Position numbers and translations under genes: made by a program. From positions 1-64,000 of the forward strand of contig NZ_JANUCJ010000001.1 of assembly GCF_024807615.1 (NCBI RefSeq): a DNA stretch of 64,000 nucleotides, written 5' to 3'. Of this stretch, positions 1 through 2,705 are shown in pieces. How positions within the stretch are numbered: position 1 is the stretch's first letter; each line of letters starts with the position of its first letter. The notes below the pieces were generated by a model, which had not been told where the DNA came from, made no database searches, and was given only the letters and a program-made list of their open reading frames with translations. The stretch comes from Tsukamurella ocularis (GTDB lineage: Bacteria; Actinomycetota; Actinomycetes; Mycobacteriales; Mycobacteriaceae).

Positions 1-476
1 GACACGCCCTTGTTGTTCGACACCGGACCACCCTCAGTGACCTCACACACCACATCGCTGCCCTCGACCGAGACCACCGTCAGACCGACCTTGCCGTCAT
101 CGACCAACAACCGATCACCCGCGCGGGCATCCTGCGCAAGCTCCTTGTACGTGGTGGACACCCGATCATGCGTACCGACCACATCATCGACGGTGATCCG
201 CACCGTCTCACCCGTCTCCCACACCGTCCGGCCATCACCAGCGAACCGACCCAACCGGATCTTCGGACCCTGCAGATCCGCGAGAATCCCCACCGCACGA
301 CCAGTCTTATCCGACGCAGCACGCACACGCTCGTAATTCACACCATGATCAGCATGCTCACCATGACTGAAATTCAGGCGCGCAACATCCATCCCCTCCT
401 CGACAAGAGCAAGAACCTTCTCATCAGTTCCGACAGCAGGGCCCAGGGTGCAGACAATCTTGGTTCGACGAGTCAC
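1..476 (-). CDS. pyk: Pyruvate kinase, N-terminal part (cut by window edge)
   Basis: Catalyses phosphoenolpyruvate + ADP to pyruvate + ATP, the last step of glycolysis. The 158 visible codons begin VTRRTKIVCTLGP and contain MDVARLNFSHG and ADLQGPKIRLG, the substrate-binding opening of pyruvate kinases; the frame runs off the left edge, so about two thirds is missing. The GTG at 476 is chosen because it matches the family start and lies 7 nt behind a TACGTT -10 element, so the message is probably leaderless; an in-frame GTG at 494 is the alternative. Codon use is odd: 13 of 14 Asp codons are GAT and all four His codons are CAT, unlike most of the window. A palindrome upstream of its promoter is shared with pfkA. 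Confidence 0.95.
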   Translation of the reverse strand, partial: MTRRTKIVCTLGPAVGTDEKVLALVEEGMDVARLNFSHGEHADHGVNYERVRAASDKTGRAVGILADLQGPKIRLGRFAGDGRTVWETGETVRITVDDVVGTHDRVSTTYKELAQDARAGDRLLVDDGKVGLTVVSVEGSDVVCEVTEGGPVSNNKGV

Positions 477-483
477 AGGACGG

Positions 484-531
484 AACGTATGCACCCCGGA
501 TCAGGGTGACAACCGTCACGCCCATATGGGC
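484..531 (-). promoter_or_regulatory. pyk promoter with palindromic operator
   Basis: On the minus strand TTGTCA (507-512) and TACGTT (484-489) are separated by 17 nt, a good sigma-70-type pair that ends 7 nt before the pyk GTG. The perfect 12-bp palindrome GCCCATATGGGC (520-531) lies 7 nt upstream of the -35 hexamer, just past the stop codon of the SorC-type regulator. The same palindrome, at the same 7-nt distance, precedes pfkA. A site centred near -49 suits an activator, but repression is not excluded. Confidence 0.65.
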
Positions 532-532
532 A

Positions 533-1495
533 TCAGGCGCGATCCGCGGATTCGGCCGGAGCGACACGCAGCAGCGAGATGGCGGTCTCGCGGTCTGTGA
601 CGAGGGACGTGACCACACCGCTGATGAGGCTCGCTCGGATGGCTTCCACCTTCTGATGGCCGCCGGCGATCGCGATCACCTCATCGACCGCACTCAGCTC
701 GCGGTAGGAGATCGCCAGCGTGCGCCCACTGTAGTTCGTGCGCACCGGGCGCCCCGCGGCGTCGAACTGGATGGCACACAGCTCGGCGGCGACGTTGAGC
801 GAATCCAGTTCCGCCCGTCCCTGATCCGACAGCATGGCGTACACCTGGGAACCCGTGAGGTCGAGACTGCCGACGGCGACCACGGCGACGGTGATCCGCT
901 TCCACAGTCCCATCGCGGTGGCGACGCCGGGCTGCCGGGCGAGGGCCGCCTTCATCCGCTGGTCCGACATGATGAGGGGTGCGTAGATGGGGTACTGGGG
1001 GCCGCGGGATACGGAGGTCAGCTGACGCACCAGGTCGACCGAGCTGGCCTGGACGTCGCCCACCACGCCGGACATCTGGACGATCGTGCACGGCGGCAGG
1101 TCCCGGACGTGCTGCGCCATCGCATCCAGGGTGCGCCCCCAGCCGACGCCGAGCACGTCCGACTCGGTCACGACCTCGCTGAGCAGGTCCGCAGCCACCC
1201 GGCCGAGGCCGTGCCGGAGGCCGTCGAAATCGGTGAACGAGCCGGTGGCGACCAGCGCGCGACGCAGGCCGTACGCGCGGCGCAGCCGCTCAGAGAGGTC
1301 CGCGTCGACAGCGGCGTCGGTGTTGATCTCGATGCGGACCAGGCCCGACTCGAGGCTCGCGTCCAGGATTCTGGCCACCTTGTACCGGGACAGCCCGTAC
1401 TCGGCACCGATCTCCATCTTCGACTTCCCGTCGAAGTAGAACCGCCGCGCGATAGCGGCGGCCTGGACGACTTCGGCCGGACCCATGGACCCCAT
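533..1495 (-). CDS. SorC/CggR-type sugar-phosphate-sensing transcriptional regulator
   Basis: A 320-residue DNA-binding regulator. The N-terminal 60 residues hold a helix-turn-helix (IGAEYGLSRYKVARIL); the remainder is a SorC sugar-binding domain (GVGWGRTLDAM, VQMSGVVG, and a C-terminal SYRELSAVDEVIAIAGG segment). Family members (SorC, DeoR of Bacillus, CggR) bind phosphorylated sugars through this domain. The start at 1495 follows GAGGGAGG at 5 nt spacing. The gene sits between pyk (downstream, same strand) and divergent pfkA, and matching palindromes flank both ends, so regulation of these two glycolytic genes is the obvious hypothesis, possibly with a glycolytic phosphate as effector as in CggR. 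The effector and sign of control cannot be read from the sequence. Confidence 0.85.
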   Translation of the reverse strand: MGSMGPAEVVQAAAIARRFYFDGKSKMEIGAEYGLSRYKVARILDASLESGLVRIEINTDAAVDADLSERLRRAYGLRRALVATGSFTDFDGLRHGLGRVAADLLSEVVTESDVLGVGWGRTLDAMAQHVRDLPPCTIVQMSGVVGDVQASSVDLVRQLTSVSRGPQYPIYAPLIMSDQRMKAALARQPGVATAMGLWKRITVAVVAVGSLDLTGSQVYAMLSDQGRAELDSLNVAAELCAIQFDAAGRPVRTNYSGRTLAISYRELSAVDEVIAIAGGHQKVEAIRASLISGVVTSLVTDRETAISLLRVAPAESADRA

Positions 1496-1567
1496 CGGTG
1501 CCTCCCTCAACAGCGTCGCGGGCGGGACGTCCGCCGCCCTCAGCGTAGATCTTCCGGACGTCAGTGC

Positions 1568-1617
1568 GTGCCCATATGGGCACCGCCGTTGTCGAAACGT
1601 TCCGATCCGCGTCTGAT
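1568..1617 (+). promoter_or_regulatory. pfkA promoter with palindromic operator
   Basis: A 16-bp perfect palindrome, GTGCCCATATGGGCAC (1568-1583), contains the same 12-bp core found before pyk. The core ends 7 nt upstream of TTGTCG (1589-1594); 17 nt further is TCTGAT (1612-1617), a weak -10. In the other direction the palindrome overlaps a poor -35 for the regulator's own promoter (TACGCT, 1542-1547), so one site could control both divergent genes. Confidence 0.6.
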
Positions 1618-1673: not shown

Positions 1674-2705
1674 GTGCGCATCGGAGTGTTGACCGGTGGT
1701 GGTGACTGCCCCGGCCTGAACGCGGTTATCCGCGCGGTGGTCCGCACCAGCGACTCCCGCTACGGATCCGCCGTCGTCGGATTCCAAGACGGCTGGCGCG
1801 GCCTCCTCGAAGACCGCCGCATCCACCTATCCAACGACGACCGCAACGACCGGTTATTGACCAAAGGCGGCACCATACTCGGCACCGCCCGCACCCACCC
1901 CGACATCCTCAAAGCCGGCCTCGACCGCATCAAAGCCACCCTCGACGACAACGGCATCGACGTCCTCATCCCCATCGGCGGCGAAGGCACCCTCACCGCC
2001 GCCTCCTGGCTCGCCGACGAAGGCGTCCCCGTCATCGGCGTCCCCAAGACCATCGACAACGACATCGACTGCACCGACGTCACCTTCGGCTTCGACACCG
2101 CCCTGACCATCGCCACCGACGCCATCGACCGCCTCCACTCCACCGCCGAATCACACCAACGCGTCATGCTCGTCGAAGTCATGGGCCGCCACGCCGGCTG
2201 GATCGCCCTCAACTCCGGCATCGCCTCCGGCGCCCACGCCGTCCTCATCCCCGAAGTCCCCTTCGACGTCGAAGAACTCTGCACCATGATCAAACGCCGC
2301 TTCCAACGCGGCCACGCCAGCTTCATCGTCGTCGTCGCCGAAGGCGCCAAACCCGCCGAAAACACCATGGAACTACGCCTCGGCGGCACCGACGAATTCG
2401 GCCACGAACGCTTCACCGGCGTCGCCCACCAACTCGGCATCGAAATCGAAAAACGCATCAACAAAGAAGTCCGCACCACCGTCCTCGGCCACGTCCAACG
2501 CGGCGGCACCCCCACCCCCGCCGACCGCGTCCTCGCCACCCGCTACGGCGTCAACGCCGCCCACGCCGCCCACGCCGGCACCACCGGACAAATGGTCTCC
2601 CTCCACGGCACCCAAATCACCCTCGTCCCCCTCGCCGAAGCCGTCAAACAACTCAAACGCGTCCCCCGCGACCGCTACGACGACGCCGCCGAATTCTTCG
2701 GCTGA
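1674..2705 (+). CDS. pfkA: 6-phosphofructokinase
   Basis: Phosphorylates fructose 6-phosphate to fructose 1,6-bisphosphate, the committing step of glycolysis. At 343 residues it is full length for the actinobacterial group: nucleotide-binding [13 protein letters not shown] at the N-terminus, IGGEGTL (G105) and PKTIDND with catalytic Asp128. Gly105 in this motif marks ATP-dependent enzymes; PPi-dependent ones carry Asp there. The GTG start follows AAGGGGA. Codon use is striking: all 18 Glu codons are GAA, all 8 Gln codons CAA and 9 of 10 Lys codons AAA, while neighbouring genes use GAG, CAG and AAG. It is divergent from the SorC-type regulator and shares its palindrome. Confidence 0.96.

Follow-up and report, generated by a model that had tools for sequence, protein, structure and literature searches.

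Background

Central glycolytic genes are usually present in few copies and are globally controlled. In Corynebacterium glutamicum, from a related order, several glycolytic genes are under the control of SugR and GlxR, which belong to other protein families than the regulator described here and act on single-copy genes. It is also known that regulators of the SorC family control sugar genes, and that one of them, CggR, controls glycolysis. In Bacillus subtilis, CggR represses the gapA operon from a 45-bp operator at +32 to +77, described as a two-part direct repeat downstream of the start site (PMC11229326). The same source describes B. subtilis DeoR, which represses deoxyribonucleoside catabolism, as acting on dra-nupC-pdp from -60 to -21, with the palindrome of its operator on the upstream side and upstream of the -35 (PMC11229326).

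Here we analyse a stretch of 64,000 nucleotides from Tsukamurella ocularis (contig NZ_JANUCJ010000001.1, positions 1 to 64,000; hereafter the window). A preliminary description of this DNA had pointed to one palindrome placed identically before pyk and pfkA, with the gene of a "CggR-like" regulator between them. We consider it likely, judging from comparative evidence, that this palindrome is the operator of a SorC-family protein and the switch of an accessory glycolytic cassette, and that the same protein also reaches ppc. In searches of open-access literature, no listed title or abstract start concerned this locus, its operator or its arrangement. What we regard as new is the accessory duplicated cassette, the upstream geometry of its operators, the link to ppc and the paired change in recognition helix and operator. 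Below, genomes, contigs and loci are given as G, C and L numbers, and G000 is the genome of the window.

Two identical predicted operators before pyk2 and pfkA2

The exact 12-mer GCCCATATGGGC is found at 520-531 (predicted operator O1, before pyk2, beginning at position -55 relative to the GTG of pyk) and at 1570-1581 (predicted operator O2, between the divergent genes sorC and pfkA2). These are the only exact matches in the window, as had been claimed, and they are also the only two in the whole genome (4,306,542 bases in 9 contigs). The spacing proposed earlier, 7 nt to TTGTC(A/G) and then 17 nt to a -10, can indeed be read from the sequence at both places. On the minus strand the palindrome (531-520) is followed after 7 nt by TTGTCA (512-507) and, 17 nt further, by TACGTT (489-484), which gives a predicted pyk2 promoter at 484-512. 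On the plus strand O2 is followed, again after 7 nt, by TTGTCG (1589-1594) and, after the same 17-nt spacer, by TCTGAT (1612-1617), a predicted pfkA2 promoter at 1589-1617. The distance from palindrome to -10 is thus 30 nt for both genes. The pyk2 transcript is probably leaderless, since the start codon comes only 7 nt after the -10; at pfkA2 about 50 nt separate the likely start site from the start codon. A candidate -10 for sorC itself, TACGCT (1542-1547, minus strand), lies 22 nt from O2, and TAnnnT occurs at the same spacing in all seven sorC-bearing genomes.

Both promoters contain further conserved words. The reading of TTGTCA as a -35 box of pyk2 was incomplete, as this box also lies inside a Crp/GlxR-like word, GTGACGGTTGTCAC (506-519), of the form GTGA-N6-TCAC. 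At 506-519 and at the equivalent place in loci L077-L082 it reads GTGAyGGTTGTCAC, with all but one base invariant in the seven genomes; among the promoters scanned, GTGA-N6-TCAC turned up behind O1 alone and at none of the housekeeping genes. The GlxR consensus is given as TGTGA-N6-TCACA (PMC7999487). The word overlaps the pyk2 -35 in 7/7 genomes and suggests a second regulatory input. On the other side, a near-perfect second palindrome, TCGAAACGTTCCGA (1592-1605), occupies the pfkA2 spacer, is invariant in the seven genomes and could be bound by a further regulator, perhaps a repressor of the LacI type or another kind.

Conservation within the genus

A sorC gene was found in 6 of 15 Tsukamurella genomes drawn, and a sixteenth genome, G201, was added through a tblastn match at paired palindromes. 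All seven sorC-bearing genomes keep both palindromes, 1048-1051 bp apart and with the same promoter boxes; hence loss of the palindrome from relatives with the same gene order, which would have spoken against the proposal, is not seen. None of the 12 palindrome positions varies at either site, against 31 invariant positions of 77 and 32 of 100 in the flanks, even with the promoter boxes counted in. Also invariant are GTGAnGGTTGTCAC and TGCATA on the pyk side, as is TTGTCAC there (7/7), and TTGTCGAAACGTTCCGA on the pfkA side. The gene behind O1 varies (pyk2, but fba2 in G201 and gap2 in G148), is always glycolytic, and the promoter is kept.

The 16 Tsukamurella genomes together hold 19 exact copies of the word and two of its reversed control. 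Fourteen of the 19 come from the seven sorC loci, two at each, three stand before ppc, and two are strays (in G137 and G168). Near-identical loci also exist in Tsukamurella asaccharolytica, T. sputi, Tsukamurella sp. PLM1 and T. pseudospumae. We did not find sorC in G030, G178 and G070, though parts of the cassette are present; the contigs of these genomes break in repeats, and the absence may come either from such breaks or from true loss.

The regulator is of the DeoR/SorC subclass

The gene between the two sites, sorC (533-1495, minus strand), encodes a SorC-family regulator of 320 amino acids, with a helix-turn-helix (HTH) of the DeoR/LsrR type (GLSRYKVARIL) and a C-terminal sugar-binding domain (PF04198, 2.8e-58, residues 65-310). 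Its family had been named correctly; the start is corrected to the ATG at 1495 as the likely one, and the reference start at 1498 adds one codon.

The description as "CggR-like" holds for the glycolytic theme and for the family, and fails for the subclass. The nearest solved relatives of the regulator are DeoR, SorC and LsrR (8r7y, 2w48 and 4go1), and it aligns with them through its HTH, whereas CggR chains match it from residue 68 onward only and leave the HTH out. Judged by these alignments the DNA-binding end is that of DeoR and SorC, and a CggR assignment is rejected. The closest solved relative is B. subtilis DeoR (phmmer 2.2e-26, residues 16-310, HTH included), which also resembles our system in having its operator palindrome upstream of the -35; it differs in that it governs deoxyribonucleoside catabolism, and does so as a repressor, and the Lys of its VVQLKGG stretch is Ser in the Tsukamurella protein. 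The equivalog models of neither B. subtilis DeoR (NF053881, 144.4 bits against a cut-off of 420) nor LsrR (NF011947, 98.1 against 486) are reached. With CggR the protein shares the SorC-family sugar-binding domain and, probably, the control of glycolytic genes; the DNA-binding domain is different by sequence. The operators differ as well. The two-part CggR operator follows the start site (PMC11229326), whereas the Tsukamurella sites are 12-bp palindromes that begin 55-65 nt ahead of the start codons of pyk2 and ppc or lie directly 5' of the pfkA2 -35; at the cassette they precede promoters of second gene copies.

An accessory cassette of second copies

The idea of a local glycolytic regulon, made up of the site, a SorC-family regulator, pyk and pfkA, is supported by our analysis. 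Its characterization as a regulon of "both irreversible enzymes" needs to be extended: pyk and pfkA are there, but in most of these genomes they are second copies, and the operon runs on with fba2, gap2 and often eno2. The locus is best described, from gene content and order, as an accessory cassette of second copies, pfkA2/sorC/pyk2-fba2-gap2-eno2.

In the window, pfkA2 (6-phosphofructokinase, 343 amino acids, 1674-2705, plus strand) is the second copy of its gene in the genome, and 158 codons of the 5' part of pyk2 are present (3-476, minus strand), as the contig starts here. We infer that the 3' part is at G000:C4:1-450; from this pyk 3' end contig C4 continues with fba2, gap2 and eno2, so that C1 and C4 would join across pyk2. 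The full order pfkA2, sorC, O1-pyk2-fba2-gap2-eno2 is seen in G158 and G086. Variants lack eno2 (G125), carry fba2-gap2-eno2 without pyk2 (G201) or have gap2 alone (G148). Most cassette-bearing genomes have other copies of pfkA, pyk, fba, gap and eno elsewhere. All five enzymes are duplicated in G158 and G086, and eno is single in G125 and G188; in G148 gap alone is duplicated and the sole pfkA is the cassette copy, and in G000 the second pyk is absent from the assembly.

The flanks of the cassette, with names assigned by eye, are glpK and an aminotransferase, and galK, galT, deoR and a sodium-solute symporter. In G137 and G113 these flanks stand together with about 0.9 kb between them and no cassette. 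In G188 they are 20 bp apart and the cassette is on other contigs; G100 and G053 have the same flank genes in a different order, also without a cassette.

Two further gene sets were observed away from these loci. In G113 (L092, C1:135000-150000) there is a run of gap2, a 1.2-kb stretch without a confirmed gene, pyk2 and pfkA2, with no sorC; by eye, a ROK-like regulator precedes it and a likely polyphosphate glucokinase follows, which looks like a parallel wiring of the same idea. In G201 (L101, C1:1024000-1034000), away from the sorC locus, a third gap copy is followed by a pyk copy that was read as two overlapping pieces.

Copies that look homogenised

Within a genome, the two fba copies are separated by 4-28 differences in about 1020 nt (97.3-99.6% identity, six genomes); from one of these species to another, identity of the same fba copy is 85-94%. 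Trees place same-genome fba copies as sisters in all six genomes, and same-genome pfkA copies in 3 of 6 (G000, G188 and G201; not G158, G086 and G125), a pattern of concerted evolution. The cassette copies of gap from G158, G030, G000, G086 and G201, on the contrary, group together and not with their own second copies. In the window, pfkA2 (1674-2702) differs from the second copy (G000:C4:305042-306070) at 5 of 1029 nt; G000 and G188 pfkA2 differ from each other at 283 of 1026 positions, and from their own second copies at 5 and 13. Given that synteny, operators and regulator are common to the species, gene conversion would explain the likeness of the fba and pfkA copies better than repeated fresh duplication.

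A site before ppc and a probably small regulon

The earlier suggestion that a genome-wide search for the 12-mer should reveal sites at other glycolytic genes is not borne out for the housekeeping copies: none of 52 housekeeping promoters (160 nt each; 11 pfkA, 13 pyk, 13 fba, 15 gap) has the palindrome at two or fewer mismatches. A further site does exist before ppc, the gene of PEP carboxylase, which adjoins the housekeeping gap region. With 0 or 1 mismatch the palindrome precedes ppc in G000, G158, G188, G086, G201, G030 and G178, which are all seven genomes that possess both ppc and at least part of the cassette, and in none of the six that lack a cassette of this kind; upstream of ppc in G053, G100, G113, G137, G168 and G198, every 12-mer within 250 nt has at least 3 mismatches. 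In four genomes the site is GCCCATATGAGC. It begins at -55 from the start codon in four genomes, at -56 in one and at -65, one helical turn further, in two; a -10-like hexamer follows at 30 nt in four, 31 in one and 40 in two. G030 and G178 have the site though sorC was not found in them. The link to ppc is not a general one, because ppc was not detectable in the whole genomes of G148, G125 and G070, where the cassette or parts of it are present.

Sites with up to one mismatch show no genome-wide excess (37 in 10 genomes, 17 of them exact, where the control word gives 45). A wide regulon is therefore rejected, and the regulon appears to be small. The two other one-mismatch matches in G000 (C1:178368 and C1:247812) were rejected as operators, lying inside long open frames with high third-position GC, and one match in G030 is also inside an open frame.

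Homologues in other genera

Thirty-five homologues from 15 other genera were compared. Six are all the out-of-genus matches of the first draw (L012-L017). The other 29 (L213-L241) come from a second survey with a match in 85 of 397 genomes, from which the loci of the 30 best were taken, one being the window itself. The 35 are not independent, as 11 come from one genus (g62). These actinobacterial proteins (39-51% identity) have a near-identical recognition helix and their sites share the same palindrome frame, GCnCAnnTGnGC; they differ in the word, which is GCTCAnnTGAGC, and in residue 38.

In all 35 loci GCTCAnnTGAGC lies upstream of the homologue's projected start, at a distance of no more than 300 nt. 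Moreover, all 56 such words in the 137,805 nt of homologue loci sit upstream of the locus's own regulator gene and none elsewhere, and the reversed word does not occur in the same 137,805 nt. These are the clean controls; the count in random windows (698 of 7000) is inflated, since such windows can overlap true sites. The Tsukamurella word departs from GCTCAnnTGAGC in the third base of each half and nowhere else, and the ppc site GCCCATATGAGC is a hybrid of GCCCATATGGGC and GCTCAnnTGAGC halves. The recognition-helix residue aligned to Tyr38, which is Tyr in 7/7 Tsukamurella proteins, is Phe in 35/35 homologues. Tyr38 may be the cause of the altered base preference, with other residues differing too.

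Not one of the five glycolytic genes occurs within about 1.5 kb of the homologue in any of the 35 loci. Neighbours in ten loci, by eye, include sugar transporters, dehydrogenases, sugar kinases, SIS-domain proteins and a transketolase. Two operators precede the regulator gene in 21 of the 35 homologues, with a spacing of 104-107 bp in all but two of these (L213-L241), which suggests looping or paired tetramer binding. The homologues of genus g25 (L014, L015 and L017) have TGCTCATATGAGCA upstream. Since the divergent gene in L015 resembles a transketolase, this type of regulator may reach central carbon genes elsewhere too.

How the switch may work

The palindrome is very probably the operator of the protein encoded between the sites. 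We propose that SorC binds O1, O2 and the ppc site, and that a sugar phosphate at its C-terminal domain would most likely set DNA binding. A cassette of up to five second-copy enzymes, pfkA2 on one side and pyk2-fba2-gap2-eno2 on the other, would then add a second glycolytic dose, together with PEP carboxylase, when sugar is plentiful, and the housekeeping copies, which have no operator, would run underneath this dose.

The sign of control is a separate question. The preliminary description took the position near -49 to suggest activation of pyk and pfkA. This is not established by position, given that DeoR is described as repressing from -60 to -21 (PMC11229326). We nevertheless lean towards SorC being an activator, as the palindrome is constantly placed upstream of the -35 and is shifted by one helical turn in two ppc promoters. 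A serious though somewhat less probable alternative is that SorC is a repressor like DeoR, LsrR and CggR, the apo-protein on O1 and O2 holding the cassette off until a glycolytic sugar phosphate releases it. Repression is the habit of this family and DeoR exerts it from a similar position; O2 abuts the likely -35 region of sorC, and in 26 of the 35 homologue loci one site begins no more than 32 nt ahead of the projected start codon, where a repressor would be expected to bind. On the contrary, the pyk2 and pfkA2 sites end upstream of the -35, and the ppc site of G086 and G178 occupies -65 to -54, a position from which a single dimer is unlikely to obstruct polymerase. Nor is a shared second half-operator seen, by eye, downstream of the palindromes, although DeoR and CggR bind two-part operators as tetramers.

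It is highly improbable, in our opinion, that the palindrome belongs to another regulator, for instance of the Crp/GlxR or LacI type, with sorC a mere neighbour. The Crp/GlxR-like word and the second palindrome in the same promoters could be taken as hints of this, but they are separate from the 12-mer; furthermore, the same kind of palindrome precedes the regulator's own gene in 35/35 homologue loci, and the ppc site is missing where no such cassette was found. An origin of the word as a chance repeat or as a byproduct of repeated DNA, which the repeated genes of the cassette might bring to mind, is ruled out for practical purposes by the copy counts and by conservation across seven species, which is concentrated in the palindrome, the promoter boxes and the Crp-like word on the pyk side, and by the flanks of the two sites, which differ from each other.

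Implications

Taking SorC to be the protein that acts at this operator, we can offer a tentative evolutionary scenario. A polyol-type SorC regulator may have been captured by a movable cassette of duplicated glycolysis, and the change of Phe38 to Tyr, together with that of GCTCAnnTGAGC to GCCCATATGGGC, may have insulated it from the sites of its relatives. A second glycolysis, complete in itself and separately switched, would have resulted. It would also have recruited ppc; in G188 it occupies a different locus; and gene conversion would keep its fba (6/6) and pfkA (3/6) copies near-identical to the housekeeping ones while the promoters differ.

Irrespective of whether this scenario is correct, near-identical accessory enzymes stand here beside the gene of a dedicated sensor of the sugar-phosphate type, in some species, and are missing between the same flanks in others. 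Such a distribution would constitute a natural experiment in three respects: it could show what a cell gains from additional glycolytic flux under conditional control, how gene conversion can even out coding regions and leave the promoters distinct, and how the recognition helix of a regulator evolves in step with its operator.
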